Of a stretch of DNA of 64,000 bases, positions 2,203-36,240 are shown in pieces. Origin of the DNA: Actinomyces capricornis (GTDB lineage Bacteria > Actinomycetota > Actinomycetes > Actinomycetales > Actinomycetaceae); the NCBI RefSeq assembly GCF_019974135.1, contig NZ_AP025017.1, positions 2,604,001 to 2,668,000 on the forward strand, in the 5' to 3' direction. The position numbers and the translations under genes are program-made. A model generated the notes under the pieces. That model saw nothing but the letters and a program-made list of their open reading frames with translations. It made no database searches and was not told where the DNA came from. The first letter of the stretch is position 1, and each line of letters opens with the position of its first letter.

Positions 2203-2424
2203 ATATCGGATGTCTGATGTTGGCGGGGGAGGGTGACTTTTCCGCATGGTGTCGTTGGATTCCGGGTGACGGGGGCGCTGGAGGGGCGTCGCTGGCGCTG
2301 TGGCGCTGACCTGCATGGATGTGGTACAAAGGGGTCTGTGCCGGGGCGGTCTGGAGGGTGCTGACGGGTCGCCTGCACTGCGCCTCGTATCACTGCTGGT
2401 CACAGGGGGTGGTTCGAGGGGTGG
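2203..2424 (+). promoter_or_regulatory. CRISPR leader 1
   Basis: A non-coding stretch directly before array 1 that aligns without gaps to 35576-35797 before array 2, with about 12 differences in 222 positions by eye (roughly 95 % identity). It ends in the same GGGGTGG at the first repeat of both arrays. Conservation on this side only, with degenerate repeats at the other end, marks it as the leader where transcription starts and new spacers are added. The preceding 2046-2202 shows no gene. Confidence 0.85.
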
Positions 2425-2797
2425 GTCAGAAGGCACCCCGCGCCATAAGGTGCATTGAGACCAAGCTGGGGCTGTGCCCAGCCTTTAAAGGGAACCGTCA
2501 GAAGGCACCCCGCGCCATAAGGTGCATTGAGACGGCTCGACAAGACACGCCGCAAGCGGCTGCGTCCAGTCAGAAGGCACCCCGCGCCATAAGGTGCATT
2601 GAGACACGCCGAGCTGCCGGGCCCGAGCCAGGAACCACGGTCAGAAGGCACCCCGCGCCATAAGGTGCATTGAGACTTATCGACCCTTCCGCTATAGAGC
2701 CACTGACTCAAGTCAGAAGGCACCTCGCGCCATAAGGTGCATTGAGATGCGTTGATGCGCTTCTGGTTCTCGGCCACCACCTGGTCAGAAGGCGCCC
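2425..2797 (+). CRISPR. CRISPR array 1 (5 repeats plus a truncated one)
   Basis: 37-nt repeats start at 2425, 2497, 2569, 2640 and 2712. Each begins GTCAGAAGGCACCCCGC and ends GGTGCATTGAGAC, with inner dyad GCACC/GGTGC. The five spacers are 34-35 nt and all different. The fifth repeat carries two changes (C to T in the core, last C to T), and at 2784 only GTCAGAAGGCGCCC remains, so the distal (oldest) end is to the right and transcription runs left to right. The 8-nt 3' end ATTGAGAC resembles the 5'-handle of Class 1 (type I/III) crRNAs cut by Cas6. No cas gene lies within the window on either side. Confidence 0.97.
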
Positions 2798-2831
2798 TGT
2801 GTGGGTCGGTTCTCTGCCGGGTCGGTCGTTT

Positions 2832-2923
2832 TCTGCTGGGTGACTTGCATTCTGCCCGTTGAGATCCGCCTGTCTGGGTCAGCGGGATGTGGGTGACCCA
2901 GCGAGATGCGGGAGACCCCGCGG
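2832..2923. repeat. Dispersed palindromic repeat, copy A
   Basis: Begins CTGCTGGGTGACTTGCATTC and contains GGGTGACCCAGCGAGATGCG, so the left and right parts are imperfect inverted copies of a CGCTGGGTGA...GCATCC module. It lies immediately after the truncated last repeat of CRISPR array 1. Other copies are at 36250, 36901 and 40989. No ORF is conserved between copies. Confidence 0.7.
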
Positions 2924-3306
2924 CATAGCGCGTGCGCCCCTTGATCGCCGGGGCGACCGAGAGGGCCTCGACAGGTCTCCTGCACTGCGCCCATGGGGGC
3001 GGGCTCCTCCGGGATACCGTCATGAGGGCTATGCGCAGGCGTAGCGATCCGCTGTTCTTAGTCGGGTCGGGGAGCGGGAGCATCCTACGTCTAGAGACAT
3101 TCACCTCGGTCGGTGAGCAGCTCCCTGCATGGTCTCTGGGGCGGGATGTTATTCCGTCCAGTGACAGGTGGCCCGCCAAAGACTGGATTCCCTGTGAGCG
3201 AGCCTTTCGTGTAGTAGGGTAATGGGGCGCTCTATGGTGTGCTCAGTCGCCATGCTGAATCTGCCGGGAGTGCGATGCGCATCGGTGCGAGTTGAAAGGG
3301 AGAGGA
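2924..3306. other. Intergenic stretch, no gene seen
   Basis: Between the palindromic repeat and the Nudix gene. Base composition is visibly less GC-rich than the flanks and short reading frames lack coding-like codon use. Nothing was recognised apart from a possible promoter just before the Nudix gene. Confidence 0.5.
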
Positions 3307-3723
3307 TTGCTGGGCGCCTATCATTTCGGTGTTTACGCACGTATACGATGCAATGGCCTGCTGCTCTGCGTGAGAAAAACTCGTGGACCGTATCAAGGGC
3401 TCCTGGATCTTCCGGGAGGGAGCCCCGAGCCCTTCGAGTCATGGCATGAGGCGCTGCGTCGAGAGCTCCATGAAGAGCTCGGGGTCAGCAGTCTCGCCAT
3501 AGGAGATTTCTCGAGATTCGCGATCCACGTGGATCGCTCGGCGGACGGGTCGCTCATCGACTTCCATCATCACGGCGCCATCGCCCATGTGCGCCTCCGC
3601 GAGGATCCTCCCTCCGATGCGAGGAGCTCCTCCGATACCGCAGGATGGAGATGGTTCAACCCTCAGCAGGACGACCCCTCCGAGCTGAGCCGTCTCGCCG
3701 CTGAGGTGGGCATGGCGGAATGA
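3307..3723 (+). CDS. Nudix hydrolase
   Basis: 138-residue protein with a complete Nudix box: a glycine, E six residues later, then REL, EE and a final GV, in the segment GGSPEPFE...RRELHEELGV. This is the Mg2+-binding catalytic helix that hydrolyses a nucleoside diphosphate linked to another moiety; the substrate is not predictable. TTG at 3307 is preferred because AAAGGGAGAGG lies just before it; a TTG at 3292 would add five residues but has no ribosome site. Codons are noticeably less GC-rich at third positions than in neighbouring genes (TAT, TTT, CAT are used). With the adjacent CRISPR array and repeat this suggests an acquired gene. Confidence 0.85.
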   Translation: MLGAYHFGVYARIRCNGLLLCVRKTRGPYQGLLDLPGGSPEPFESWHEALRRELHEELGVSSLAIGDFSRFAIHVDRSADGSLIDFHHHGAIAHVRLREDPPSDARSSSDTAGWRWFNPQQDDPSELSRLAAEVGMAE

Positions 3724-3872
3724 GGCCTTCTCGTCACAAGGAGGGCGCGGGCGGGGCTGCGAGGGCGGGCGCGCACGCGGCTGCGCCTCGGAGCCGCTCT
3801 CGGCTACGAGCGCATGTGCTCAGGAGGGGCCCAAGGAGCGTCAGAGCCGGAGGGGGAGTGCTCACCGCATAC

Positions 3873-4352
3873 TCACGCGCCCGCCCGCGTCAGGCGGCTC
3901 TGCTTGAGACGGCGGTGCTGGAGGACCACCGAGGTGGCGAAGGCCGCGATGATCGCCACCGAGACGATCCGGCCGGTCGTGGTGGAGAACCAGGCGCCCA
4001 GCACCGCCATGCCCACGGTCGTGTAGATCGTGGCCCAGGCCACCGCCCCCACGGCGGTGGCCGGGATGTAATGCCGCAGCGGCATGCGCGCCACCCCGGC
4101 CGAGAGCTGGATGAAGCTCTGGAGCCCCACGGTCAGGAAGGACATGGGGATGGCCAGCACGCCCCAGCGAGCTGTCCAGGCCTGGGCCGTGGCGTACAGG
4201 GGGTGATCGAGCATCGCCGCCCACCTGCTGCGGGCCGTGCCCGCCGTCACGCCCCGCCCGATCCAGTACATGGTGTGGGAGCGCATCATGGCCCCGCACC
4301 AGAAGAACAGGAAGACCCAGGCGTAGGGCAGCTCGTTGATCCGGTCCATCAC
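3873..4352 (-). CDS. DedA/VTT-like membrane protein
   Basis: 159 residues, mostly membrane-spanning: segments near 8-25, 65-90, 98-120 and 123-145, with a short basic C-terminus. The layout and the phrase FLTVGLQSFIQLSAGVARMP resemble the SNARE-associated/DedA (VTT) family, whose members move or scramble lipids or support membrane homeostasis. It is shorter than a typical DedA (about 200 residues), so the assignment is moderate. GTG at 4352 (or the adjacent ATG at 4349) lies 7 nt after TAGCCT with no Shine-Dalgarno, suggesting leaderless expression. A DtxR-like palindrome overlaps this position. Confidence 0.62.
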   Translation of the reverse strand: MMDRINELPYAWVFLFFWCGAMMRSHTMYWIGRGVTAGTARSRWAAMLDHPLYATAQAWTARWGVLAIPMSFLTVGLQSFIQLSAGVARMPLRHYIPATAVGAVAWATIYTTVGMAVLGAWFSTTTGRIVSVAIIAAFATSVVLQHRRLKQSRLTRAGA

Positions 4353-4371
4353 GCGGGTCAGGCTAGCCTAA
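4353..4371 (-). promoter_or_regulatory. Possible DtxR/IdeR-like box
   Basis: On the minus strand TTAGGCTAGCCTGACCCGC matches about 14 of 19 positions of the iron-repressor consensus. It overlaps the presumed -10 (TAGCCT) of the DedA-like gene. The GC-rich core makes a chance match plausible. Confidence 0.25.
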
Positions 4372-4474
4372 GCAGGGGAGCGGGTCGCAGTGATGCCGGC
4401 GATACCTCTGTACCTCTGTGCGGCCCGGCAGGCCGCGACCACCCCGCAACCCCGCCCCGGGGCAGCACCCGCAA

Positions 4475-5266
4475 CTACCCCCGCAGCGTCGCCTGGAGCG
4501 CCTGGAGCCAGGCGCTGTAGGCCGGGCCGGCCCAGCCCCTGCCCGCCGGTGCGGCCGGGTCGCGCTGGAAGGCGGCCGGGTTGGCCCCCGGCCCCTGGAG
4601 CAGGAGTGCCTTGTAGTGGTCGGGGAAGCGCATCTTGAAGGTGAACTCCACATTGCTCAGGCCCTTGGTGATCCTGCGGGAATCGCCCAGGCTCCCGCCG
4701 GCCAGTGCCCCCTCGGCCTCCAGCTGCATGAGGTGGCGGGCCAGGAGGGGCACGGAGAACCGGGCCAGGTCGATCGTCAGGCCCTGGCCGCGGCTGTCGC
4801 GCACGACCGCCGTGCGCCGGTTCGCCGCGTGGTACGTGGTGATCTCCTCATGGGCCACCCGCTTCTCCCGGCCGCGCCAGGTGGTCATGATCGTCATCGT
4901 CGGGGCATCCACCAGCGAGCAGTTCCGGTAGGAGCGCAGGGTGTGCACGCCCGCGCCGGTGATGACGGCCCCCATCACCCCCAGGACCGCCACGGCCATG
5001 GGATCGGGGACCACCGCCGCGATCAGCACCAGGATCGCGCCGCAGGCGATCGTGATGACGCCGAGCACCCTCATGGAGCCCGACGGGCGCTGGCGGGGCA
5101 CATCAATGGTCTCCGCCGCGCCACTGGGGCCACCCGGGCCGACGGGCGCGGTGATGCGCACCGGCCCGTCGCGGCGGGCGCCCCTGGAGGCTCCGACGAT
5201 GAGGGCCACCACGAGGATGGTGAGGGCCACGAGGGCCGCCTTGATGAGCATGAGGCTGGTATCCAT
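4475..5266 (-). CDS. PH-domain-like membrane protein of unknown function
   Basis: 263 residues. One membrane segment at about 5-25, a Pro-rich linker, then a hairpin of two segments at about 65-105, followed by a soluble part. The stretch CSLVDAPTMTIMTTWRGREK and the following strands resemble bacterial PH-like domains that follow membrane hairpins; no enzyme motif is visible. AGGAGG four nucleotides before the ATG at 5266 fixes the start; the open frame continues upstream but without a supported start. Divergent from lepA. Function not recognised. Confidence 0.65.
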   Translation of the reverse strand: MDTSLMLIKAALVALTILVVALIVGASRGARRDGPVRITAPVGPGGPSGAAETIDVPRQRPSGSMRVLGVITIACGAILVLIAAVVPDPMAVAVLGVMGAVITGAGVHTLRSYRNCSLVDAPTMTIMTTWRGREKRVAHEEITTYHAANRRTAVVRDSRGQGLTIDLARFSVPLLARHLMQLEAEGALAGGSLGDSRRITKGLSNVEFTFKMRFPDHYKALLLQGPGANPAAFQRDPAAPAGRGWAGPAYSAWLQALQATLRG

Positions 5267-5471
5267 GGGACCTCCTGGGAGGGGAAGGAGAGAAGAGCAG
5301 GGGACGGGTGGCACGCTACCTGCGGCGCACCGTCCCTGGCGGCCATTCGGCCCCGGATGGCAGCACTGCCGGATGGGGAGTCCGACCCGTCTCACATCGG
5401 CGCCTGATGGCGCGGGCGCGGGCACGTGGGAGACTTGGGCCCGACCCATGCCCGCCTGAGGAAGAGCACAC

Positions 5472-7349
5472 GTGTCACCGATCCCCACGCCAGAGCAGAT
5501 GAGCAGCGTCCAGCCCGCGGCCACCGCGCCCGAGCTGCTGCGCAACTTCTCCATCATCGCGCACATCGACCACGGCAAGTCCACCCTGGCCGACCGCATG
5601 CTCCAGGCCACCGGCGTCGTCCAGCCCCGCGACATGCGCGCCCAGTACCTCGACCGCATGGACATCGAGCGCGAGCGCGGCATCACCATCAAATCCCAGG
5701 CCGTGCGCATGCCCTGGACCGTGGAGGGCCCCGACGGCTCCCTGCGCACCTACGCCCTCAACATGATCGACACCCCCGGCCACGTCGACTTCTCCTACGA
5801 GGTCAACCGCTCCCTGGCCGCCTGCGAGGGAGCCGTCCTCCTGGTCGACGCAGCCCAGGGTATCCAGGCCCAGACCCTGGCCAACCTGTACATGGCCATC
5901 GAGGGGGACCTGACCATCATCCCCGTGCTCAACAAGATCGACCTGCCCGCCGCCGAGCCCGAGCGGCACGCCGAGGAGATCGCCTCCCTCATCGGCTGCG
6001 ACATCGAGGACGTCCTCAAGGTCTCGGGCAAGACCGGGGCGGGCGTGCCCGAGCTGCTGGACCGCATCGTCCAGGCCGTCCCCGCCCCCGTGGGCGACCC
6101 CGCCGCCCCGGCCCGCGCCATGATCTTCGACTCGGTCTACGACACCTACCGGGGCGTGGTCACCTACGTGCGCGTCGTCGACGGCGCCCTCAAGCCGCGC
6201 GAGCGCATCGAGATGCTCTCCACCGGCGCCGTCCACGACCTGCTGGAGATCGGCGTCATCAGCCCCGAGCCCAGGCCCTCGGCGGGACTGGGGGCCGGGG
6301 AGGTGGGCTACCTCATCACCGGGGTCAAGGACGTGCGCCAGTCCAAGGTGGGCGACACCGTCACCTCCGCGGCGGCCCCGGCCACCGAGCCGCTGGCCGG
6401 CTACCAGGACCCCAAGCCCATGGTCTTCTCCGGCCTGTTCCCCGTGGACGGCTCGGACTTCCCGGCTCTGCGCGACGCCCTGGACAAGCTCAAGCTCAAC
6501 GACGCCGCCCTGACCTACGAGCCCGAGACCTCCGTGGCCCTGGGCTTCGGCTTCCGCTGCGGCTACCTGGGTCTGCTGCACCTGGAGATCATCCGCGAGC
6601 GCCTGGAGCGCGAGTTCAACCTGGACATCATCTCCACCGCCCCCTCGGTGGTCTACGAGGTGACCATGGAGGACCGCACCACCCACACGGTGACCAACCC
6701 CAGTGAGTTCCCCGAGGGGAAGGTCTCCACCGTCTCCGAGCCGGTGGTGCGGGCCACGATCCTGACCCCCAGCGAGTTCGTGGGCACCGTCATGGAGCTG
6801 TGCCAGTCGCGCCGCGGCACGATGGCCGGCATGGACTACCTGTCCGAGACGCGGGTGGAGATGCACTACACCCTGCCGCTGGCCGAGATCGTCTTCGACT
6901 TCTTCGACGCCCTGAAGTCGCGCACGCGCGGCTACGCCTCCCTGGACTACGAGATGGACGGCTCCCAGGAGGCCAACCTGGTCAAGGTCGACATCCTGCT
7001 CAATGGCGAGAGGGTCGACGCCTTCAGCGCCATCGTCCACCGGGATGCGGCCTACTCCTACGGGGTGATGATGACCAAGCGCCTGAAGGACCTCATCCCG
7101 CGCCAGCAGTTCGAGGTGCCGGTGCAGGCCGCGATCGGCACGCGGGTGATCGCCCGGGAGACCATCCGGGCCCTGCGCAAGGACATGCTGGCCAAGTGCT
7201 ACGGCGGTGACATCACCCGTAAGCGCAAGCTGCTGGAGAAGCAGAAGGAGGGCAAGAAGCGCATGAAGGCCATCGGCCGTGTGGATGTGCCCCAGGAGGC
7301 CTTCATCGCCGCCCTGGGCGCTGACACCCCCACGGGCAGGGACAAGTGA
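5472..7349 (+). CDS. lepA: Elongation factor 4 (ribosomal back-translocase GTPase LepA)
   Basis: 625-residue translational GTPase, full length for the family. G1 is AHIDHGKST near residue 32, with DTPGHVDF and NKID as G3 and G4 in the N-terminal 200 residues. EF-G-like domains and the LepA-specific C-terminal domain follow ([22 protein letters not shown] near the end). Known for remodelling stalled or mistranslocated ribosomes and for 30S biogenesis. GTG at 5472 is preceded by GAGGAAG; an internal ATG at 5499 is possible. It heads the conserved block that continues with trmB, hemW, hrcA and dnaJ. Confidence 0.97.
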
Positions 7350-7438
7350 GCCGGGACGAGTGAGCGGGTGCAGGTGAGAGGGCCGCGGATCGCAGGCCGT
7401 GCCGGCGGCTCGCGCCGGGGCGCGGTCAGGAGTAGCAG

Positions 7439-8356
7439 ATGAGGCAGGCGAGTACCAGGATCGGTGCGGCACCGGCGGGCGGTGGCGCGCCGGTCGCCTC
7501 GCCCAGCGTGCGCGCGGCCATGGACGACGACGGCGCGGGCCTGGTGCTCACCCGGGAGCTGGCCCGGGTGCTGGGCGAGCCCCATGCGGGCGCTGACGGT
7601 CGCCACCGCGGGGAGCCCTCGCCCTTCGGCCGGGGCGAGGCCGTGGGCCGGGTCTCGGCGGTGTGCGCCGTGGAGCGGCTGCGCCCGGACTGCGGGTCGC
7701 CGGGGGTCTCGGCCATCCACAAGGCCGCGATCGCGGGCGCGGTGGCCGTCAACTCCCTGGGCATCGTCGTCGACCAGCAGGCCGACCGCGCCCACCACGG
7801 CGGCCTGGACAAGGCCCTGTACGTGATGAGCGGCGCGGAGGCGCGCCACTGGTCCCGCGAGCTGGGAGGGATCGGCCCGGGGGCGCTGGGGGAGAACATG
7901 CTCATCGAGGACGACGGCGCCGCAGGGATCGACGACGTCGAGATCGGCGCGGTGCTGTCCATCGGCCCGCCCGGCCGCTCCGATCACCCCGGCCGGGGCG
8001 CTGAGGATCGTGGGAGCCCCGGATCCGACGGCATCCTGGTGCGGGTCACCGGGGTGCGCAACCCCTGCTCCACCTTCGCCCGCGGCATGGGTCGGGCCGA
8101 CTGGGTGGAGCTCTTCTCCGCCCGCGACCGCGTGGGCGTCTACCTGTCGGTCCTGGCCGAGGGCCGGGTGCGGGCCGGGGACGAGGTGCGGGTGGTCTCC
8201 ACTGCTGGCCACGGCGTGAGCTGCCGGCGCTGGTTCGCCCACCACGACCCCCGCGATGCCCGGGCCGTGCTCGCCGCCGAGGCGCGCGGCGACTGCGTGA
8301 TCGCGGACTTCACCAGGAAGTACCTGCTGGCCGCCGTCGATGAGCCGGTCGGATGA
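7439..8356 (+). CDS. MOSC domain protein (YiiM-like)
   Basis: 305 residues. The middle carries the MOSC signature: GIVVDQQADRAHHGGLDKAL followed by W..ELG, PGALGENM and later RNPC. MOSC domains handle sulfur from a conserved cysteine in molybdenum cofactor sulfurases, and YiiM-type members reduce N-hydroxylated substrates. The conserved Cys is present in VTGVRNPCSTF. The N-terminal 30 residues and an inserted Gly/Arg-rich loop are less conserved. It overlaps the first possible start of trmB by 4 nt, so the two are probably co-transcribed. Confidence 0.8.
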   Translation: MRQASTRIGAAPAGGGAPVASPSVRAAMDDDGAGLVLTRELARVLGEPHAGADGRHRGEPSPFGRGEAVGRVSAVCAVERLRPDCGSPGVSAIHKAAIAGAVAVNSLGIVVDQQADRAHHGGLDKALYVMSGAEARHWSRELGGIGPGALGENMLIEDDGAAGIDDVEIGAVLSIGPPGRSDHPGRGAEDRGSPGSDGILVRVTGVRNPCSTFARGMGRADWVELFSARDRVGVYLSVLAEGRVRAGDEVRVVSTAGHGVSCRRWFAHHDPRDARAVLAAEARGDCVIADFTRKYLLAAVDEPVG

Positions 8357-8367
8357 GGAGGAGACCC

Positions 8368-9393
8368 ATGGCCCAGCAGCACCCGCCCCGCTCCCACGCC
8401 ATTCCCTCGCGCGTGCGCTCCTACTCGCGCGCCGGGGGCAGAATGCGGCCGGCCCAGGCCCAGGCGCTGTCCGAGCTGGGGCCGCGCTACGTGGTGGAGG
8501 TCCCGCGGGATGACGCCGTGCGCACCGTCGCCCCCGGGTTCCGCCTGGAGCCGGAGGCGCTCTTCGGCCATGCCGGCCAGGCCCGGCCCCTGATCGTGGA
8601 GGTGGGCCCGGGCAGCGGGGAGGCCCTGCTGGCCCACGCCGCCTCCCATCCGGGCGCCGACCACCTGGCCATCGAGGTCTGGGAGACGGCCATCGCCAGG
8701 ATGGTGGCGGCCATCGCTCGCCAGGGGCTGCGCAATGTGCGGGTGGTGCCCGCCGACGCCGCCCAGGTGCTGGCCCGCGCCCTGCCGGTGAGCAGTGCCA
8801 GCGAGGTGTGGGTGTTCTTCCCCGACCCCTGGCGCAAGGCCCGCCACCGCAAGCGCCGCCTGGTCACCGAGGGCTTCGCCGACTCGGTGGCGCGCGTGCT
8901 GCGCCCCGGCGGGGTGTGGCGCATGGCCACGGACTGGGCGGACTACGCCTGGCAGATGCGCGACGTCGTCGAGGAGGTCTCGGCCCTGCCCGCCGGGCTG
9001 CGCCCCGATGCCACCCTGCCCTACTTCCGCCATGACGATGCCGGTGCCCGGCCGGGGCTGGGCGCGCAGGGCGCGGTGGCGGGCGACCCGGGCAATGGCA
9101 TGGACCCCGGCTCGCCCGCAGGTGTCATCGGGGGGTGGTCCGAGCGCTTCGCCGGCCGGGTGATGACCCGTTTCGAGCAGCGCGGCCTGGAGGCGGGCCG
9201 GACCGTGCGCGACCTCAGGGCGGTGCGCACCGAGGTGGCCTGGGAGCCCGAGCTGGGCGCCTCCATGCTCCAGCGCCTGGAGGCCCAGCGGGCGGCCTGG
9301 GACGCCGTGGAGCGCGAGCCCTGGCGCCTGCGCGAGGCCGACGCTCTGGGGGGCCTACGCCCTGATGGGCCGGGCAGGGGGCTGCGGGAGTGA
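8368..9393 (+). CDS. trmB: tRNA (guanine-N7-)-methyltransferase
   Basis: Makes m7G46 in tRNA with S-adenosylmethionine. The SAM-binding loop EVGPGSG is near residue 80, and the TrmB-specific FPDPWRKARHRKRRL lies in the middle, followed by ATDWADYAWQM. About 341 residues, longer than usual because of an N-terminal RSYSRAGGRM region and a Gly-rich insertion near 225-245. ATG at 8368 is chosen because GAGGAGGAG sits 5 nt before it; ATG at 8353 lacks that spacing. The end overlaps the hemW GTG by four bases. Confidence 0.93.
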   Translation: MAQQHPPRSHAIPSRVRSYSRAGGRMRPAQAQALSELGPRYVVEVPRDDAVRTVAPGFRLEPEALFGHAGQARPLIVEVGPGSGEALLAHAASHPGADHLAIEVWETAIARMVAAIARQGLRNVRVVPADAAQVLARALPVSSASEVWVFFPDPWRKARHRKRRLVTEGFADSVARVLRPGGVWRMATDWADYAWQMRDVVEEVSALPAGLRPDATLPYFRHDDAGARPGLGAQGAVAGDPGNGMDPGSPAGVIGGWSERFAGRVMTRFEQRGLEAGRTVRDLRAVRTEVAWEPELGASMLQRLEAQRAAWDAVEREPWRLREADALGGLRPDGPGRGLRE

Positions 9394-10703: not shown

Positions 10704-10922
10704 CGGCCGCGCGCAGTAGGCAGGGGGCTGGCCGGCGGTCGCCCCCGGTGGTACCCCGCGCGGCCACGGCACCAGGAGCAGGCGGAGGGCATCGCCGCGA
10801 TCCGGCAGGCCCGGGCCTCGCCGGGCCATCCCCCATGGCGACCCGATCGCCCCAGCACGGGATGCGCATAGATCCGGCATTCACCTGCGATTGAGGCCTT
10901 ACCTGTGGAAGAGTGATGGGCT

Positions 10923-11747
10923 ATGAGTACCTATCCACCCAACCCGCAGTACCCCGACCACGGCCAGCAGCCAGGTGACGGCCAATCCGGCTACGGCGCC
11001 CAGCAGCAGCCCGGCTACCCGCCCTACCCCGCGGGAGGAGCCGGCCAACAGGGATATGCCGCCCAGCCCGGATACGGCGCGCCCGGCTATGGCCCGCAGC
11101 CCGGCTACGGGGCGCCGGTGGCGCCGCCCAGTGTCGGTGAGGGCCTGTCCTGGGCGTGGTCGGTCGTCACCTCCAATGCCGCGGTCATCCTCGGGGGTTT
11201 CGGCCTGTGGACCCTGGTCATCGGCCTGCTTACTGCGCAAATGACCGTCACCATCGACAACGAGGAGGTCACCTACGGCCTGGGCATCCCCTTCGGCCAG
11301 CCCGTCGGCTACGTGCTGAGCCTGCTGTCCACCATCGTCTTCGCCCACGTCGGCCTCAAGGCCGCCTCCGGGCAGCGCGTAGCCTTCTCCGACTTCTTCA
11401 CCTTCCCGAACCTGGGAGGAACCCTGGTTGCAGCCCTCCTGACCTGGCTGGCCGTCGGGGTGGGCACCCTGCTGTGCCTCATCCCCGGGATCATCGCGCT
11501 TTTCCTGCTCTACTTCTCCGTGTACGCCGCAGCGGACAGGGGCGTGGACGGCATCGAGGCCATGAAGATCTCCTGGCGGACCCTGAGCGCCAACGTCGGG
11601 ACGTACCTGCCCTTCGCCCTCACCGGATCCGGCCTCTACCTCCTTGGTGCGGTGACCGCTATCGGCTGGGTCGTCACGGTCCCACTGGTCGCGCTGATGA
11701 CCGCCTACGCCTACGTGCGCTCCCAGGGCCGCCAGGTGGCGGCCTGA
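10923..11747 (+). CDS. Integral membrane protein with Gly/Tyr/Pro/Gln-rich N-terminal tail
   Basis: 274 residues. The first 70 are a low-complexity cytoplasmic tail made of repeated YG/QPGYG units, as in many actinobacterial membrane proteins. Four or five hydrophobic segments follow (about 83-105, 120-145, 155-190, 235-262). GLSWAWSVVTSNAAVILGG and the soluble WRTL segment suggest a DUF975/glycerophosphodiester-phosphodiesterase-like membrane domain, but no catalytic residues are visible. Stand-alone gene with a strong hairpin after it. Function unknown. Confidence 0.7.
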   Translation: MSTYPPNPQYPDHGQQPGDGQSGYGAQQQPGYPPYPAGGAGQQGYAAQPGYGAPGYGPQPGYGAPVAPPSVGEGLSWAWSVVTSNAAVILGGFGLWTLVIGLLTAQMTVTIDNEEVTYGLGIPFGQPVGYVLSLLSTIVFAHVGLKAASGQRVAFSDFFTFPNLGGTLVAALLTWLAVGVGTLLCLIPGIIALFLLYFSVYAAADRGVDGIEAMKISWRTLSANVGTYLPFALTGSGLYLLGAVTAIGWVVTVPLVALMTAYAYVRSQGRQVAA

Positions 11748-11759
11748 TACCGCCGGCCC

Positions 11760-11797
11760 GGGGCGCCCGGCGCCGTCCTGGCAGCATCGGGCGCCCC
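11760..11797 (+). terminator. Hairpin terminator after 10923-11747
   Basis: GGGGCGCCCG (11760-11769) pairs perfectly with CGGGCGCCCC (11788-11797), 10 bp with an 18-nt loop. There is no T-tract, as is common in very GC-rich actinobacteria. Confidence 0.6.
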
Positions 11798-25463: not shown

Positions 25464-25499
25464 AGCAGGAGCGCTGCCCGGCCCGCTAGGATCGGCTCG

Positions 25500-28491: not shown

Positions 28492-29665
28492 GACGCACGA
28501 CAGCCACGAGACCAGCCCGGAGCCCGTGGGCACCGACGGCCCTGAGCGGGATGCCGAGCGCCCCGGGCCCCCGGCGGGCTTCCGCTTCCCCTCCGACGCC
28601 GAGCTCATGGACGGCCCCAACGCCCTGGAGGACGACTGGGAGGACGGTGACGACGGCGGCGACGGTGATGACGACGGTGAGTGGCCCGAGGGCCCCGGGG
28701 GCCTGCCGGCCTCGGCCCGTGTGGAGGTGAGCATCCCGGACTACCCCGAGGACTTCCGGGCGGGCTTCGCCTGCCTGGTGGGGCGCCCCAACGCGGGCAA
28801 GTCCACCCTGACCAACGCCCTGGTGGGCACCAAGGTGGCCATCACCTCCGGGCGCCCCCAGACCACGCGCCACAATGTGCGCGGCGTGGTCCACCGCGAG
28901 GGCGCCCAGCTGGTGCTGGTCGACACCCCCGGCATGCACCGGCCCCGCACCCTGCTGGGCAAGCGCCTCAACGACCTGGTGCGCCAGACCCTGGCCGATG
29001 TCGACGTCGTGGCCCTGTGCATCCCGGCCGATGAGAGGATCGGGCCCGGCGACCGCTTCATCGCCCGGGACCTGGCCGATCTGCGCAGGCCCGTGGTGGC
29101 CGTGGTCACCAAGGCCGACAAGGTCTCGCGCCAGGACCTGGCCGCCCAGCTGCTGGCCGTCGACGCCCTGGGGGAGTGGGCCGACATCGTGCCGGTCTCG
29201 GCGGTGAGCGGCGAGCAGATCGGGACCCTGGAGGAGGTGCTCATCAAGCACCTGCCCCTGTCCCCGCCCCTGTACCCCACCGGGGAGATCACCGATGAGC
29301 CCCAGGAGGTGATGATCGCCGAGCTGGTCCGGGAGGCCGCCCTGGAGGGGGTGCGCGAGGAGCTGCCCCACTCCCTGGCCGTCGTGGTCGATGAGATCGC
29401 CGACCCCAGTGACACCACCCGCGAGGCCGGCCTGGTCAAGGGCGCGGGCCAGCGGCTCCAGGTGCGCATCTCCCTGGTGGTCGAGCGCGACTCCCAGAAG
29501 GCCATCATCATCGGCAGGGGCGGCTCGCGCCTCAAGGAGGTGGGTGTCAAGGCGCGCCGGGGCATCGAGGAGCTGGTGGGCCGCAAGGTCTACCTCGATC
29601 TGCATGTGCGCACCGCCAAGGACTGGCAGTCCGACCCCAAGGCCCTGGCCCGCCTCGGGTTCTGA
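28484..29665 (+). CDS. era: GTPase Era
   Basis: 393 residues. GTPase domain with GRPNAGKST (G1), DTPGMH (G3) and TKAD (G4), and a C-terminal KH domain with IIIGRGGSRLKEVGVKARRGIEELVGRKVYLDL. Era binds 16S rRNA near its 3' end and assists 30S assembly, in line with the neighbouring ybeY. The first 90 residues are an acidic, low-complexity extension (DDWEDGDDGGDGDDDGE) absent from the usual 300-residue Era. The start overlaps the CorC-type gene. Confidence 0.95.
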   Translation: MTRTHDSHETSPEPVGTDGPERDAERPGPPAGFRFPSDAELMDGPNALEDDWEDGDDGGDGDDDGEWPEGPGGLPASARVEVSIPDYPEDFRAGFACLVGRPNAGKSTLTNALVGTKVAITSGRPQTTRHNVRGVVHREGAQLVLVDTPGMHRPRTLLGKRLNDLVRQTLADVDVVALCIPADERIGPGDRFIARDLADLRRPVVAVVTKADKVSRQDLAAQLLAVDALGEWADIVPVSAVSGEQIGTLEEVLIKHLPLSPPLYPTGEITDEPQEVMIAELVREAALEGVREELPHSLAVVVDEIADPSDTTREAGLVKGAGQRLQVRISLVVERDSQKAIIIGRGGSRLKEVGVKARRGIEELVGRKVYLDLHVRTAKDWQSDPKALARLGF

Positions 29666-29807
29666 GGCCATCGGGGCGGATCGTGTCGCGGCCCGGCTGT
29701 GCTTCGGCGCGGTCATGGCGCACACTGGGACTCATGAACTCGTGGGCCGCCGCGGCAGGCCCATCGGTCCTGGCCACCCTCCTGACGCACAAGAATGGGA
29801 GTGCACT

Positions 29808-32800
29808 ATGACAACGACGTCACCTCACACCGGCCCTGAGCCCGCCCCCGGGCGCCCGGCGCCCGGAGCCTGCCCCGCCGAGCTGTGGGATCTTGGCGCC
29901 CGGGCGGTGGCCCGCGCCCGCATCTGGGCGGATGCCTCAGCCCATGAGCCGGTGCCCCGCACGGCCGAGCTCCTGTCGCGCATCCTGGCCGACCCCGATG
30001 GCCTGGAGTTCACCACGCGCTTCGTCGACGACGTCGTGCGGCCCGCCGACCTCGACGTGGCCGGGCGGGCCCTCCAGCGCCTGGCCGCTGGGCGCACCGG
30101 CTTCCTGCCCCCGGCGCTGTCGGCGGCCATGGGCCTGGGCGGGCTCGCCTCGCGCCTGGCCCCCTCGGCGGTGGCGGCCATCGCCCGGCGCACCTTCCGC
30201 GAGCTGGTCGGCGACCTGGTGGTCGACGCCACCGAGCGGGGGCTGGGCCCGGCCCTGGCCCGCCTGCGCAAGGGCGGCAACCGGCTCAACGTCAACCTGC
30301 TGGGCGAGGCGGTCCTGGGCGAGCAGGAGGCGGGGCGCCGCCTGGCCGATGTCGCCGACCTGGTGGCCCGCGAGGACGTCGACTACGTCTCGGTCAAGGT
30401 CTCGGCGGTCACCGGTCCCCACAACCCGTGGGGCTTCGATGAGGTGGTGGCCCACGGCGTGGAGGTCCTCACGCCCCTGTACCGCCTGGCCCGCGACCAC
30501 GGCACCTTCCTCAACCTGGACATGGAGGACTACAAGGACCTCGACCTGACCCTGGCGGTCTTCACCGCCATCCTGGACCAGGAGGACCTGGCCGGCTATG
30601 AGGCCGGCATCGTCCTGCAGGCCTACCTGCCCGACTCCCTGGCCGCGATGCAGCGCCTCCAGCAGTGGGCGACCGCCCGCGTGGACGCCGGCGGCGCCCG
30701 CATCAAGGTGCGCGTGGTCAAGGGCGCCAACCTGGCCATGGAGGCCGTCGATGCCCAGATCCACGGCTGGCAGATGACCACCCTGCCCTCCAAGCAGGCC
30801 ACCGACACCAACTACAAGCGCATCCTGGACTGGGCGATGACCCCCGAGCGCACCCGGAGCATCCGCCTGGGCGTGGCCGGCCAGAACCTGTTCGACATCG
30901 CCCTGGCCTACGAGATGCGCGCCGAGCGCGGCCTGGAGGACGGCGACGCCGTGGAGTTCGAGATGCTCTCGGGCATGGCCACCGGCATCCAGGAGGTCGT
31001 GCGCCGCGACGTGGGTCACCTGCTCCTCTACGTCCCGGTGGTCTCGCCCACCGAGTTCGATGTGGCCATCGCCTACCTGGTGCGGCGCCTGGAGGAGAAC
31101 GCGGCGCCGGCCAACTTCATGTCCGGGGTCTTCGACATCGCCACCGATGAGGCGGTCTTCACCCGGGAGCGCGACCGCTTCCTGGCGGCCCTGGCCGACG
31201 TCGATCCCTCCGCGCCCCTGCCCACGGCCCGTCGCGATCAGGACCGCCTGGCCGAGCAGGAGGCGGGCCTGCCGCCCATGGACGCCGAGCCGCGCCCCTT
31301 CGCCGCCACCCCCGACTCCGACCCGTCCCTGGCCGCCAACCGGCGCTGGGCCCGCCAGATCGCCGCGGCGGTGCCCACCTCCCAGCGCGGCGTCCAGGCC
31401 GTGGCCTCCGGGGCGGCTCGCCTGGCGACCGCCGAGGCCGTCGACGCCGCCGTCGAGCTCCTGCGCGACTCGGCCCCCGCCTGGGCCGGGCTCGGCGCCA
31501 CGGAGCGGGCCGCCATTCTCAACCGGGTCGGCGACGTGCTGGCCGTGCGCCGCGGCGAGCTCATCGAGGTGGCGGCCTCCGAGGCGGGCAAGACCATCGA
31601 CCAGGCGGACCCCGAGGTCAGCGAGGCCATCGACTTCTGCCGCCACTACGCCGAGATGAGCCTGTGCCTGGAGGACCCCGACTACCTGGCCGGGGCGCGC
31701 TTCGTCCCCTCGCGCCTGACCGTGGTGGCCTCGCCCTGGAACTTCCCCCTGGCCATCCCCACCGGGGGCGTGGCCGCGGCCCTGGCCACGGGAAGTGCCG
31801 TCATCCTCAAGCCCGCGCCGCCGGCCAAGCGCTGCGCCGCCGAGCTCGTGGCGGCCTTCCACGAGGCGGGCGTGCCCCAGGACGTCCTCATGCTGGCGCC
31901 CATCGAGGACGGCGAGGTCTCCCAGCACCTGGTCACCCATGAGGGCGTGGACCGGGTCATCCTCACCGGCTCCTACGACACCGCCCGGCTCTTCCGCTCC
32001 TGGAGGCCGGACATGCACCTGCTGGGGGAGACCAGCGGGAAGAACGCCATCATCGTCACCCCCTCGGCCGACCCCGACCTGGCCGTGCGCGACACGGTGG
32101 CCTCCGCCTTCGCCCACGCCGGGCAGAAGTGCTCGGCCTCCTCGCTGCTCATCCTCGTGGGCTCGGCCGGGCGCTCGGAGCGCATCGCCCGCCAGCTCGT
32201 GGACGCCACCGCCTCGCTGCGCGTGGCCGCCCCGGAGAGCCTCGACGCCCAGGTGGGGCCCGTCGTCGTGCCCGATGAGCCCAAGGCCCTGCGGGGCCTG
32301 ACCACCCTGGGCGCCGGCGAGCACTGGGTGCTGCGCCCCCAGCACCTGGGCGGTGGCCTGTGGCGCCCCGGCATCCGGGCGGGGGTCAGGCCCGGCAGCG
32401 AGTACCACCTGACCGAGTACTTCGCCCCCGTCCTGGGGGTCATGCGCGTCGACACCCTCCAGGAGGCCATTGACGCGGTCAATGCGGTGGACTACGGCCT
32501 GACCTCGGGGCTGCAGACCCTCGACGCCGAGGAGCTGGCCCTGTGGCTGGAGCAGGTCGAGGCCGGCAACCTCTACGTCAACCGCGGCATCACCGGGGCG
32601 ATCGTGCGGCGCCAGCCCTTCGGCGGCTGGAAGCGCTCGGCCATCGGCTCGACCACCAAGGCCGGGGGCCCCAGCTACCTGCTGGGGCTGGGCGACCTCG
32701 TGGCGGGGGACCGGGACGGGGCGCGGGCCGAGGGCCAGGCCTCCCCGGCGGTCGAGGGCCTCTACGACGCCGCGCGCCACGAGCTGTCCCACGAGGACCT

Positions 32801-33359
32801 GGCCTTCCTGCGCGGCGCCCTGGCCGCTGATGCCCGGGCCTGGGATGAGGCCTACGGCCGGGCCGTGGATGTCACCGGCCTGCCCTGCGAGCGCAATGTG
32901 CTGCGCTACCGGCCCGGCCCGGCCGTGGTGCGCGCCGAGGCGGGCACCGCCCCGGTGGACCTGGTGCGCGTCATGGCCGCGGCGGTCCTGTCCGGTGCCC
33001 CGGTGCGCCTCTCGACGGATCAGCCGCTGAGCCCCGGCCTGGGCGGGGCGCTGGCGGGCGCCGGCGTCGAGGTGGTGGTCGAGGCACCGGTGGTCTGGCA
33101 GGCGCGCCTGGCCGACCTGGCCGCCTCCGGGGAGCTGGGCGTGCGGGTGCGCCTCCTGGGGCCGCGCGATCAGAGCGCCGAGGCGCGGTGGGACGAGGCC
33201 TCCCGGATCACCGGGGGCAGCCCGGATGTGGCCCTGTACACCGGGGAGGTGACGGCCTGCCCGCACAGCGAGCTGCTGCCCTTCCTGCACGAGCAGTCGG
33301 TGTCGGTCACCAGCCACCGCTTCGGCACCCCCTTCGACATCGCCGAGGGGCTGCTGTAG
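29808..33359 (+). CDS. putA: Bifunctional proline dehydrogenase / L-glutamate gamma-semialdehyde dehydrogenase
   Basis: 1183 residues. The N-terminal half (about 60-460) is the FAD proline dehydrogenase barrel, with VSVKVSAVTGPHN, LDMEDYKDLDLT and YKRILDWAMTPERTRSIRLGVAGQN. The second half (about 530-1020) is an aldehyde dehydrogenase with WNFPLAIPTGG, LGETSGKN (Glu741) and GQKCSASS (nucleophile Cys775). Together they oxidise proline to glutamate with channelled P5C. There is no N-terminal ribbon-helix-helix, so it is not self-regulating as in E. coli. The last 150 residues match a C-terminal extension of larger PutA forms. ATG at 29808 has GGGAG 7 nt upstream. Confidence 0.95.
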   Translation: MTTTSPHTGPEPAPGRPAPGACPAELWDLGARAVARARIWADASAHEPVPRTAELLSRILADPDGLEFTTRFVDDVVRPADLDVAGRALQRLAAGRTGFLPPALSAAMGLGGLASRLAPSAVAAIARRTFRELVGDLVVDATERGLGPALARLRKGGNRLNVNLLGEAVLGEQEAGRRLADVADLVAREDVDYVSVKVSAVTGPHNPWGFDEVVAHGVEVLTPLYRLARDHGTFLNLDMEDYKDLDLTLAVFTAILDQEDLAGYEAGIVLQAYLPDSLAAMQRLQQWATARVDAGGARIKVRVVKGANLAMEAVDAQIHGWQMTTLPSKQATDTNYKRILDWAMTPERTRSIRLGVAGQNLFDIALAYEMRAERGLEDGDAVEFEMLSGMATGIQEVVRRDVGHLLLYVPVVSPTEFDVAIAYLVRRLEENAAPANFMSGVFDIATDEAVFTRERDRFLAALADVDPSAPLPTARRDQDRLAEQEAGLPPMDAEPRPFAATPDSDPSLAANRRWARQIAAAVPTSQRGVQAVASGAARLATAEAVDAAVELLRDSAPAWAGLGATERAAILNRVGDVLAVRRGELIEVAASEAGKTIDQADPEVSEAIDFCRHYAEMSLCLEDPDYLAGARFVPSRLTVVASPWNFPLAIPTGGVAAALATGSAVILKPAPPAKRCAAELVAAFHEAGVPQDVLMLAPIEDGEVSQHLVTHEGVDRVILTGSYDTARLFRSWRPDMHLLGETSGKNAIIVTPSADPDLAVRDTVASAFAHAGQKCSASSLLILVGSAGRSERIARQLVDATASLRVAAPESLDAQVGPVVVPDEPKALRGLTTLGAGEHWVLRPQHLGGGLWRPGIRAGVRPGSEYHLTEYFAPVLGVMRVDTLQEAIDAVNAVDYGLTSGLQTLDAEELALWLEQVEAGNLYVNRGITGAIVRRQPFGGWKRSAIGSTTKAGGPSYLLGLGDLVAGDRDGARAEGQASPAVEGLYDAARHELSHEDLAFLRGALAADARAWDEAYGRAVDVTGLPCERNVLRYRPGPAVVRAEAGTAPVDLVRVMAAAVLSGAPVRLSTDQPLSPGLGGALAGAGVEVVVEAPVVWQARLADLAASGELGVRVRLLGPRDQSAEARWDEASRITGGSPDVALYTGEVTACPHSELLPFLHEQSVSVTSHRFGTPFDIAEGLL

Positions 33360-33391
33360 TCCCGGCCTCGGCCTTGTCGGGCGCTTGCCGC

Positions 33392-33433
33392 CGGCCCCCG
33401 CCGCCCCGGATCCCTCGGGTGCGGCGGGGGCCG
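33392..33433 (+). terminator. Terminator hairpin after putA
   Basis: CGGCCCCCGCCGC (33392-33404) and GCGGCGGGGGCCG (33421-33433) form a perfect 13-bp stem with a 16-nt loop directly after the gene. Confidence 0.75.
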
Positions 33434-33542
33434 TGCACGTGGTGACGGCCCGGTTCGCCCCACGCAGGACTGTCCTTGCCGCATGACGATATGTAGTAGT
33501 AGTGCTACACTAGATCGTGTATCCACTGTGAGGAGGTGTGCC

Positions 33543-34430
33543 ATGTCAGAGGTGGTCCGATGCGAGGGCCTGGACTTCTCCTACGGTGCCCTGCCAGTGC
33601 TGCGATGCGTGAACCTGAGCATCGGCCGGGGTGAGGTGGTCTGCCTGCTGGGCCCCAATGGGGCGGGCAAGACCACCCTGGTCGAGCTCCTCCTGGGCTC
33701 GCTGCGCCCGTCCTCGGGCGCCGTGCGGGTCCTGGGCCGTGACCCCAGGCGGGCGGGTCCGGCTTTCTGGGCCCGGATCGGACTGGTCCAGCAGAACTGG
33801 TCAGACCACCCCAAATGGCGGGTGCGCGACCAGCTGGAGTGGATCCGCTCGGCCCAGCGGACCGTCGTCGACCAAGTGCTTCGGGCGGAGCAGGCCCTGG
33901 CCGCCGTCGGCCTGGAGGACAGGGCCTCCGCCCGCCTGGGCGACATCTCGGGCGGGCAGCGGCGCGCCGTCGACCTCGCGGCCGCGCTGCTGGCCCGCCC
34001 CGAGCTGCTCATCCTCGATGAGCCCACCACGGGGCTGGATCCTGCCGCCAAGGCCCGTATGCACGACCTCATCCTGGATCAGGTCGACCAGTCGGGCGCC
34101 ACGGTGCTCATGACCACCCACGACCTGGCTGAGGCCGAGCGCATCGCCTCGCGCATCCTCATCCTGGCCGGGGGAGGGATCGTGGCCAACGGCACCGCCA
34201 CGCAGCTGCGCGAATCCCTGCCGGGTCGGGCCGAGGTCACCTGGATCGAGGGCGGCGGCCGCCACGTCCACGTGACCGACCGCCCCGAGGAGTTCATCAG
34301 CACCCTGGATCTGGAGCACGTCAGCAGCCTGTCCGTCTCGCGCTCCACCCTGGAGGAGGCCTATCTGGCGCTCGTGGCCAGGGCCGGCTCCGCCGGTGGA
34401 CTGCCGACCGGGAAGGAGAATCAGCCATGA
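33543..34430 (+). CDS. ABC transporter ATP-binding protein
   Basis: 295 residues. Walker A GPNGAGKTT near 37-45, Q-loop VQQNWSDHPKW, signature SGGQRRA, Walker B LLILDEPTTGLDP and switch His in TTHDLAEA. About 70 C-terminal residues follow the ATPase fold, as in ABC-2 exporters. GAGGAGG upstream of the ATG at 33543 fixes the start. Possible promoter TACACT lies 30 bp upstream, inside a TAGTAGTAG run. Operon with a permease (ATGA overlap) and a small XRE regulator; this set resembles antimicrobial-peptide or self-resistance exporters, but the substrate is not known. Confidence 0.9.
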   Translation: MSEVVRCEGLDFSYGALPVLRCVNLSIGRGEVVCLLGPNGAGKTTLVELLLGSLRPSSGAVRVLGRDPRRAGPAFWARIGLVQQNWSDHPKWRVRDQLEWIRSAQRTVVDQVLRAEQALAAVGLEDRASARLGDISGGQRRAVDLAAALLARPELLILDEPTTGLDPAAKARMHDLILDQVDQSGATVLMTTHDLAEAERIASRILILAGGGIVANGTATQLRESLPGRAEVTWIEGGGRHVHVTDRPEEFISTLDLEHVSSLSVSRSTLEEAYLALVARAGSAGGLPTGKENQP

Positions 34431-35272
34431 GTCCCATCGCCGTGCCCCTGGGAATCCTGCGGGCGGGAGTCCGCCAGGCCCTGGCCGACCTGCGCCCCCA
34501 GTTCCTCAGCGCAGGGGTCGTCTCCGTGGTCCTGCCTGTGATGATCGTTGTGCTCGTGGCCCGGACGCAGGCGGACGTCCCCGATGCGGGCGGCCTGTCC
34601 TTCGGCAGCGTCCTGGCCGCCGGCGCTGTGGGCTCCTTCAGCGCCCTGGCCGTCATCCAGATCGCCAACGAGGCCTACCAGGACCGGGCCGGCGGGGCGC
34701 TGCTGCGGGTGAGGATCCTGCCTCACGGGCCCATGGTCTGGGCGGTGGGCAAGACCATCTCCTGCGTGGTCACCGTGCTGGTCACCCAGTGCTCCCTGCT
34801 CCTGGCCGCCTCGCTGCTCATCGATGGGGTGTCGCTCGATCCTGCCGACGCCTTGCTCAGCCTGCTGGCGCTTCTCCTGGCGTCGCTGGCGGTTGCGCCG
34901 ATCGGCTTCCTGGTGGCCTCGGTGGCTCGCAGCGCCTATGGCCTCATGGCGACCACTGCCGGGGTCATGGCGCTGCTGGTCACCAGCGGGTTTGCGATCC
35001 CGATGACGCAGATGCCCCTGTGGCTCCAGCGGCTGCAGTACGGCATGCCCTTCTACTGGGCGGGTCACCTGAGCCGGTGGCTGCTGGTGGGCTTGCCCGC
35101 CTGGGAGCCCGGGGGGCGCTTCCAGCCTGTAGTAGCTATTGGGGTGCTGGCGGCGTGGGCGGTGGTGGGCTTCGCCGTTGTCCCCTTCATTATCCGCCGT
35201 TCGGTCGATCAGGAGACCATCGGCAGCCTGTCGCGCATGCAGGCCAAGATCCGCCGCCAGACGGGCATGTGA
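34427..35272 (+). CDS. ABC-2 type transporter permease
   Basis: 281 residues, six membrane segments (about 28-48, 62-85, 105-132, 142-165, 170-192, 240-262). It begins in the ATGA overlap with the ATPase gene. The loop YQDRAGGALLRVRILPHGPMVW corresponds to the coupling helix region of ABC-2 permeases. The downstream XRE gene starts one base after its stop, so all three form one transcript. Confidence 0.88.
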   Translation: MSPIAVPLGILRAGVRQALADLRPQFLSAGVVSVVLPVMIVVLVARTQADVPDAGGLSFGSVLAAGAVGSFSALAVIQIANEAYQDRAGGALLRVRILPHGPMVWAVGKTISCVVTVLVTQCSLLLAASLLIDGVSLDPADALLSLLALLLASLAVAPIGFLVASVARSAYGLMATTAGVMALLVTSGFAIPMTQMPLWLQRLQYGMPFYWAGHLSRWLLVGLPAWEPGGRFQPVVAIGVLAAWAVVGFAVVPFIIRRSVDQETIGSLSRMQAKIRRQTGM

Positions 35273-35273
35273 T

Positions 35274-35513
35274 ATGGCGCCGGGAACCCAGGAGGCCGAC
35301 GCCATTCACAACCGCATCGCCGTCATGCGCGCCGACCGCAGGGTCAGCCGTCGCCAGCTCGCCGAGGCCCTGGGCGTGCACTATCAGACCGTGGGCTACC
35401 TGGAGCGCGGGGAGTACGCCCCCTCCCTCCACCTGGCGCTGCGGATCGCCCGCTATTTCGAGGTGCCGGTGGAGTCGGTCTTCTCCCTGGAGGAGTTCCC
35501 GCCGCTGGGCTGA
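35274..35513 (+). CDS. Small XRE-type helix-turn-helix regulator
   Basis: 79 residues, essentially one HTH domain: NRIAVMRADRRVSRRQLAEALGVHYQTVGYLERGEYAPSLHLALRIARYFEVPVESVF. This short form acts as a repressor of a neighbouring transporter or toxin operon in other bacteria. ATG at 35274 is one base after the permease stop, implying translational coupling and feedback control of its own operon. CRISPR leader 2 begins about 50-60 bp after its stop codon. Confidence 0.85.
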   Translation: MAPGTQEADAIHNRIAVMRADRRVSRRQLAEALGVHYQTVGYLERGEYAPSLHLALRIARYFEVPVESVFSLEEFPPLG

Positions 35514-35575
35514 GGTCCGGGCGGGAGTGCCGGCCGGGCTGGCGGGATGGGCGACGAGCAGGACCTTGGTCCTGC

Positions 35576-35797
35576 ATATCGGATGTCTGATGTTGGCGGG
35601 GGAGGGGGACTTCTCCGCATGGTGTCGTTGGATTCCGGGTGGCGGGGGCGTTGGAGGGGCGTCGCTGGCGCTGTGGTGTTGACCTGCGTGGATGTGGTAC
35701 AAAGGGGTTTGTGCCGGGGCGGTCTGGAGGGTGCCGACGGGTCGCCTGCGCTGCGCCTCGTATCGCTGCTGGTCACAGGGGGTGATTCGAGGGGTGG
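35576..35797 (+). promoter_or_regulatory. CRISPR leader 2
   Basis: Aligns without insertions or deletions to 2203-2424 before array 1 (about 12 differences by eye). Similarity fades upstream of about 35562. The shared TGGTACAAAGGGG element may contain a -10 (TACAAA), unproven. Conservation of leader and repeat implies that both arrays are served by the same Cas machinery. Confidence 0.85.
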
Positions 35798-36240
35798 GTC
35801 AGAAGGCACCCCGCGCCATAAGGTGCATTGAGACGGTGATGATCTGCATGGGGTCTCCTAACCGATGTGTCAGAAGGCACCCCGCGCCATAAGGTGCATT
35901 GAGACTCACCTCCTTTCGGGTGGTGGGGACGGGTTAGAGCTGTCAGAAGGCACCCCGCGCCATAAGGTGCATTGAGACTCACCTCCTTTCGGGTGGTGGG
36001 GACGGGTTAGAGCTGTCAGAAGGCACCCCGCGCCATAAGGTGCATTGAGACTCATTGAAGCGATGCCGGTGTTTTCGCGGTTGTGTCAGAAGGCACCCCG
36101 CGCCATAAGGTGCATTGAGACCCTCTCCCTGCTGAGATATATCTCCAGGTCAGCGTCAGAAGGCACCCCGCGCCATAAGGTGCATTGAGACCTTGTTCCA
36201 CATGGGCTGCACCCACTTGTAGAACAGTTAGAAGGCGCCC
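35798..36240 (+). CRISPR. CRISPR array 2 (6 repeats plus a truncated one)
   Basis: Repeats identical to array 1 start at 35798, 35869, 35942, 36015, 36085 and 36155. Spacers are 33-36 nt. Spacers 2 (35906-35941) and 3 (35979-36014) are identical, so one repeat-spacer unit was duplicated. A truncated repeat GTTAGAAGGCGCCC follows at 36227. Leader side is left, decay side is right, as in array 1. No spacer is shared between the two arrays. No cas gene lies within the window. Confidence 0.97.

Follow-up and report, generated by a model that had tools for sequence, protein, structure and literature searches.

Remote clustered regularly interspaced short palindromic repeat (CRISPR) arrays that are served in trans occur in genomes with several arrays, where they share the repeat and the leader of the arrays adjacent to the cas genes and the cas genes themselves are located elsewhere. 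The targets of systems in which a reverse transcriptase (RT) is fused to Cas1 (RT-Cas1) are mostly unknown. Here we report on two CRISPR arrays, A and B, in a stretch of 64,000 nucleotides (hereafter the window; bases 2604001-2668000 of a single-contig 3.17-Mb genome) from an Actinomyces near A. bowdenii, and on a type III-D RT-Cas1 locus outside the window that very probably serves both of them. An actinobacterial group of RT-associated systems, clade 10, was described in PMC5541045; its table lists 12 records for the clade, all 12 with RT-Cas1 and 7 with Csm (A-D) effectors, and the name "Actinomyces" does not occur in the main text. According to two other sources, the first a review, RT-linked type III systems acquire spacers from highly transcribed regions, without a strand bias at acquisition outside the rRNA genes (PMC9048733), and nearly all phage-derived type III spacers in Thermus are complementary to transcripts (PMC7515739).

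Results

Both arrays lie where an earlier note on this DNA had placed them, array A at 2425-2797 and array B at 35798-36240, and both run from left to right on the + strand, as had been read. They consist of 37-nt repeats separated by spacers. In array A, five full repeats (2425-2748), four of them exact and the fifth with two changes, alternate with five spacers that are 34-35 nt long; the array closes with a truncated terminal repeat at 2784-2797. Array B has six full repeats (35798-36191), all exact, and six spacers of 33-36 nt, of which the adjacent spacers 2 and 3 are identical, followed by a truncated terminal repeat at 36227-36240. The leader-proximal repeats of both arrays are exact copies of the consensus. 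The claim that both arrays end in the same truncated repeat is nearly right, as the two 14-nt forms, GTCAGAAGGCGCCC and GTTAGAAGGCGCCC, differ by one base. The leaders that had been aligned at 2203-2424 and 35576-35797 do show 12 differences over 222 ungapped positions (94.6% identity). Their similarity starts about 17 nt farther upstream than had been thought, near -239, and the leaders are given here as 2186-2424 for array A, homologous to the three other leaders in the genome, and 35559-35797 for array B, aligned with the others (both on the + strand). With near-identical repeats, spacers of similar length and a leader on one side, A and B have the features of CRISPR arrays. Allowing up to three mismatches, 30 copies of the repeat were found in the genome and none of a reversed control pattern, which excludes a chance origin of the repeats. 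No further array of at least three copies was detected in the window, and tblastn with ten Cas proteins of the genome (E<=1e-3) returned no match there, in agreement with the reported lack of recognisable cas genes.

The 30 repeats in the genome, 25 of which are identical, fall into four arrays, A to D, all on the + strand. Array C begins at 2896984 and array D at 2900381, and the two flank a single frame of 704 aa that contains an RT domain (RVT_1, residues 138-341) and a Cas1 domain (367-658). Cas2 adjoins this frame (E 1.1e-16) and makes up with it an RT-Cas1 adaptation module. Behind array D, the order is Cas10, III-D-type Cas5/Cas7 RAMPs, Csx19, a second large RAMP, a CARF-HEPN protein, a CorA-like protein and then Cas6, whose gene is on the strand opposite to the rest of the effector locus. 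The motifs FADD of the RT and GGDD of Cas10 are visible by eye in the frames. Cas10 was counted as present on its PADLOC match (E 1.4e-94), with the Pfam Cas10 palm domain at 24.6 bits, under the 27-bit cut-off. We also counted a III-D set of Cas5 and Cas7 from the PADLOC matches to Cas7_IIId (6e-52) and Cas5_IIId (1.6e-8, a weak match), beside Csm3-like RAMPs. Csx19, an accessory protein typical of III-D, was matched at E 6e-51, and PADLOC models also match the CARF-HEPN protein, CorA and Cas6. Searches of the whole genome for a second Cas1 and for other RAMP loci returned only the RT-Cas1 locus and the one RAMP locus at the cas locus.

Array B lies about 257 kb and array A about 291 kb from the RT-Cas1 gene. 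The earlier note had offered two options for A and B, namely a distant cas locus serving both in trans or a pair of orphan arrays. As far as the sequence goes, the first is right: a cas locus with two arrays of the same repeat lies about 257 kb from array B on the same chromosome and the four leaders are 91-97% identical, so that both A and B have a cas locus elsewhere whose own arrays match them in repeat and leader. They are not orphans, as the cognate locus on this chromosome has adaptation, effector and Cas6 genes. Two repeats with a T variant sit at the leader end of array C, a position that fits copying from the leader-proximal repeat.

Tandem-duplicated repeat-spacer units occur in three of the four arrays: spacers 2 and 3 of array B (window 35869-36014), two copies in array C (G000:C1:2897341-2897484, where G000 denotes this genome) and three plus two copies in array D (G000:C1:2900594-2900955). 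Two of the four duplicated spacers have a Shine-Dalgarno (SD) motif on the target strand. Such duplications were absent from the listed arrays of the two relatives described below.

Among 49 genomes of the genus, the repeat (up to three mismatches) was found in three: this genome, G003, which we took as A. bowdenii DSM 15435 for its identical repeat spacing, and a further genome, G029. In the GTDB genome collection, where records of our own genome were possibly excluded, the repeat pattern matched only records of A. bowdenii DSM 15435. A contig of A. bowdenii is collinear with positions 112-40748 of the window, most blocks being 82-98% identical and the block behind array B 74%, and at each of the two orthologous sites it has an array, with the same spacing of 33.4 kb as in this genome. 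As each species has an array at each of the two positions, these sites must be older than the split. The other two A. bowdenii arrays flank an RT-Cas1 of its own, which is 94% identical to that of this genome. No spacer was common to the three genomes (29, 23 and 22 spacers before de-duplication), and no pair among their 69 unique spacers reached 72% ungapped identity. Without a common spacer, the contents of the arrays must have been renewed since the split from A. bowdenii, in at least one species, and this lends support to the earlier suggestion that arrays A and B acquired spacers independently.

A second, weaker Cas1-like frame (313-324 aa) was seen at G003:C3:13665-14297 and G029:C1:1644178-1644834 and was absent from the Cas1 matches of this genome; it possibly belongs to another CRISPR type. 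In the last 1.8 kb of L070 (G003:C7, reverse strand), behind a TIGR03986-type RAMP, there was no match to the CARF-HEPN protein of this genome where the gene would begin, and the ancillary effectors may differ between A. bowdenii and this species.

Over 222 nt, leader A is 97% (97.3%) identical to leader C, 95% (94.6%) to leader B and 92% to leader D. The four A. bowdenii leaders are 96.4-98.2% identical among themselves and at most 95.9% to any leader of this genome, and leaders at orthologous sites (A 93.2%, B 94.1%) resemble each other no more than non-orthologous leaders do. Because the leaders resemble each other within a genome and orthology brings no closer likeness, the pattern fits leaders that may have been homogenised within each genome, by gene conversion or under a common constraint to be recognised by one Cas1/Cas2 complex. 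It is not a clean pattern for the four leaders of this genome, with 91.4-97.3% among themselves against up to 95.9% between the species. The three leaders of G029 are 90.5-93.2% identical among themselves and 69-76% identical to the leaders of the other two genomes.

In the stretch examined in G029, the RT-Cas1 is reduced to a piece of 67 aa and Cas2 to two C-terminal pieces, each before an array; the arrays and the remnants of the adaptation genes are located at G029:C1:1197576-1202403 (L071:2577-7399). The effector matches in G029 include Cas10, a Csx10-like protein, a RAMP, Csx19, a TIGR03986-type RAMP in two pieces, CARF-HEPN (31%) and CorA (34%), and there is a Cas6 match that is cut by the end of the stretch. 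It is plausible that the adaptation genes of G029 were deleted by recombination between arrays of the same direction. With its writer in pieces and its effector genes kept, G029 is a natural comparison for the present genome. Repeats that depart from the commonest form of their own array number 10 of 24 in G029, 8 of 24 in A. bowdenii and 5 of 30 in this genome. We rejected repeat decay as a sign of a dead array in G029, because A. bowdenii, with an intact-looking RT-Cas1, is similar.

The orientation of the spacers was inspected with a codon model trained on GC3-filtered frames (filtered on the GC content at third codon positions), which recovered the coding strand for 76.5% of 930 held-out pieces of 35 nt. 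It replaced a model with a held-out accuracy of 61%, probably lowered by long wrong-frame open reading frames in its training set, which had pointed in the same direction. The focal set comprised the 69 unique spacers of the three closest genomes (24 from this genome, 23 from A. bowdenii and 22 from G029). A hold-out set of 439 spacers came from 22 of 29 loci fetched in the family around RT or RT-Cas1 matches; seven loci gave none, and several of the 22 adjoin partial or interrupted RT-Cas1 matches. The controls were 442 spacers from 16 of 23 loci around a Cas1 without RT, undifferentiated as to CRISPR type; one locus had an unoriented array only and six gave none, and L101, an RT fragment listed among the controls, had no array. 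Array orientation was taken from the 3' end of the repeat, for control arrays by analogy. Exact duplicates were removed before counting, 17 unique spacers from unoriented arrays (L115 and one array of L119) were dropped, and the spacers of one L100 array, whose repeat consensus was 5 nt short, were trimmed to match. The spacers are partly non-independent, in that some may derive from the same phages.

The strand complementary to the CRISPR RNA (crRNA) looks coding in 46 of the 69 focal spacers (p 0.008) and in 286 of the 439 spacers from RT-Cas1 loci of the relatives (p 2e-10). Arrays without RT showed no such lean (226/442, p 0.67). Corrected for the accuracy of the model, about 80% of the RT-linked spacers would be antisense to genes. 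The focal counts were 14/24 in this genome, 15/23 in A. bowdenii and 17/22 in G029, and within this genome 2/5 in array A, 4/5 in B, 4/8 in C and 4/6 in D. In view of the observations in PMC9048733 and PMC7515739, the lean is no less compatible with selection after acquisition than with a sampling of RNA.

When reverse-complemented, spacer B1 of the window shows an SD motif with ATG, and B2/B3 an SD motif alone. The idea that spacers match translation starts arose by eye from the 69 focal spacers, which are therefore no independent test of it. There, a strict motif (SD5+ATG) occurs nine times on the target strand and three times on the crRNA strand (sign test p 0.07), with 1.1 expected on the target strand from GC-matched genome pieces. 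Among the hold-out spacers it was counted 11 times on the target strand, where 6.9 were expected (p 0.09), and four times on the crRNA strand (p 0.06), and among the non-RT spacers three times on the target strand and five times on the other, with 6.3 expected; the hold-out and non-RT target strands (11/439 and 3/442) differ with a Fisher p of 0.03. The SD hexamer alone was found 32 times on the target strand and 13 times on the other in the hold-out set (p 0.003; 17.4 expected, p 0.0008), and 14 and 12 times in the controls. In phage Av-1, 2.0% of the 35-mers carry the strict motif on the mRNA strand, a rate at which the antisense lean alone may explain most of the hold-out excess. The spacers of the three closest genomes appear to hold an excess of start-codon regions, for which the hold-out set gives weak support; the extra focal excess is a lead, given that the focal spacers themselves suggested the test.

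Known phages were compared with 16 of the 24 unique spacers (from arrays A, B and D) and plasmids with five spacers of array B. Neither arrays B and D against phages nor array B against plasmids gave a match at E<=1. The last spacer of array A has a weak match (about 32/37, E 0.03, others E 0.4) at a position shared by 18 related Mycobacterium phages, 12 of them listed; in the single record inspected it runs antisense to gene 54. We treated this match as chance-level and rejected it as a target. A scan of viral contigs with six single spacers (B1, B2, B4, B6, A5 and D4), exact or codon-degenerate, returned nothing, and the codon-degenerate pattern of B6 found only the B6 spacer itself in 213 genomes of the family.

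The genes around the arrays identify their sites. Upstream of array A lies an open reading frame of 354 aa (981-2045, + strand), by which the A site can be recognised as orthologous in A. bowdenii and which we take, by eye, to encode a pirin-like protein. Its product has a 94% identical counterpart in A. bowdenii at G003:C34:80644-81669, reported with one in-frame TAG, and of the 49 genus genomes searched none of the other 47 gave a match at E<=1e-40. Downstream of array A, a frame of 143 aa (3292-3723, + strand) is presumably NUDIX-like, again by eye. The B site is marked by ABC-transporter-like genes (33483-35272) together with a helix-turn-helix gene (named by eye) just upstream of array B (35277-35513, + strand, start codon provisional). 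The permease of this module is present in 30 of the 49 genus genomes, our own included, and the module carries no array in any of the five other species examined, so array B either arrived in the lineage of the two species or was lost elsewhere. Two similar neighbouring genes of 220 and 230 aa just upstream of array C (L032:10138-10800 and 10822-11514, - strand), apparently a tandem duplication, are assumed by eye to be PaiB-like.

A dispersed intergenic repeat that is not part of the CRISPR array follows array B (36253-36383, no strand assigned). Twenty matches to it are listed in the genome, on both strands, the query included and some overlapping. Copies in the window are at 36253-36383, 36904-37004 and 2825-2941, with a core like GTGACCCAGCGGGATGCG; two of them fall within 800 bases behind array B and one is behind array A. 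Part of the sequence likeness downstream of the two arrays (about 36253-36383 and 2825-2941) belongs to this repeat and was for that reason rejected as an array trailer.

Discussion

We are highly confident, on the evidence of the sequence, that a single type III-D RT-Cas1 system serves the four arrays and reaches A and B in trans. One RT-Cas1/Cas2 complex would recognise the common leader-repeat junction at four places and insert new spacers at the leader end, and one Cas6 would cut the transcripts of all arrays at the common repeat. One Cas10/Cas7 complex would then load the crRNAs from all four arrays, bind phage mRNA to which they are antisense, and pass a signal on to the CARF-HEPN and CorA proteins as effectors. 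We infer that Cas1/Cas2, Cas6 and the effector may act on A and B in trans at the present day, and likewise that the spacers may come partly from RNA. Several observations weigh against this reading. No convincing protospacer was found in the searches of phages, plasmids, viral contigs and family genomes. The NCBIfam Csx10 model scored 17.4 bits against a cut-off of 177.3, and the III-D call rests mainly on the PADLOC models. In arrays A and C the final full repeat is degenerate, the strand lean in this genome alone (14/24) is not significant, and the arrays in the window are short, with five and six spacers, as might also result from low activity.

The shortness of A and B would also suit arrays that are used for storage only, still expressed and drawn on in trans by the type III effector although changes in their leaders had ended acquisition. 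Their leaders do differ from each other and from those of C and D at several positions, and the last full repeat of array A has two changes. However, the leader-proximal repeats of both arrays are exact, leader C, adjoining RT-Cas1, is closest to leader A (97.3%), and the missing overlap of spacers with the orthologous A. bowdenii arrays implies turnover after the split in at least one species, all of which makes a loss of acquisition improbable. It is very improbable that A and B were recently copied from an array at the adaptation locus, with the common leader reflecting recency and not common machinery. The leaders are alike within a genome, as is seen best in A. bowdenii (96.4-98.2% mutually and at most 95.9% to this genome), but both sites are occupied in both species and the copies must be older than the split; the likeness within genomes then points to later homogenisation, by gene conversion or shared selection.

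The view that A and B are remnants left only by chance from a system now dead is hardly tenable for this genome. The earlier note would have called them relics if a complete cas operon had turned out to be deleted from this locus in relatives and the genome had no other cas locus; a search of the genome for the repeat and for cas genes gave four arrays and one cas locus. G029 comes close to such a state, with RT-Cas1 and Cas2 only as fragments in the stretch examined. Here, however, the cas locus has long open frames, 25 of the 30 repeats are identical across four sites, and the placement of the arrays is conserved in A. bowdenii. Arrays A and B are real, old and renewed, and it is very probable that a single type III-D RT-Cas1 locus serves them in trans. 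What seemed to be an orphan pair becomes part of a four-array system with one writer, and writing in trans by RT-Cas1 can be tested at defined sites.

The strand test provides the orientation of spacers without a known protospacer, which is helpful for RT-Cas1 systems. The clear contrast between RT-linked and other arrays within one bacterial family is the result most worth following. A tentative and rather doubtful extension is that the RT-Cas1 system of this clade preferentially stores antisense spacers against translation-start regions of mRNA, perhaps by sampling the 5' ends of mRNA or pieces bound by ribosomes, or because crRNAs of this kind give the best protection. If this were true, natural arrays would be a record of transcript 5' ends, distributed over four arrays written by one complex, two of them in trans. 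We found no literature on Actinomyces CRISPR with RT-Cas1, or on RT-Cas1 with Shine-Dalgarno motifs, in a search outside which most subscription papers fell and which is no proof of novelty.

The arrangement of remote arrays and distant cas genes is of a known and ordinary kind, and A and B do not differ in kind from other arrays served in trans; documented here are their placement, conserved in two species, and the lack of a common spacer. The type III-D RT-Cas1 system of Vibrio vulnificus, likened here by its title only, is of the same type, which in our locus is represented by III-D-type RAMPs, Csx19, an RT fused to Cas1, and Cas2. Unlike that system, ours has an actinobacterial host and CARF-HEPN and CorA as ancillaries. 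In our layout one leader recurs at four scattered arrays, and A and B are over 250 kb away from the cas genes. Clade 10 (PMC5541045) resembles our system in its actinobacterial RT-Cas1 fusion and type III effector, a likeness that for our RT-Cas1 rests on taxonomy and fusion architecture only. In Thermus thermophilus (PMC7515739), type III spacers are reported to be likewise complementary to phage transcripts; those spacers were freshly acquired by a system without RT, whereas ours lie in natural RT-Cas1 arrays and their strand was deduced from codon usage.

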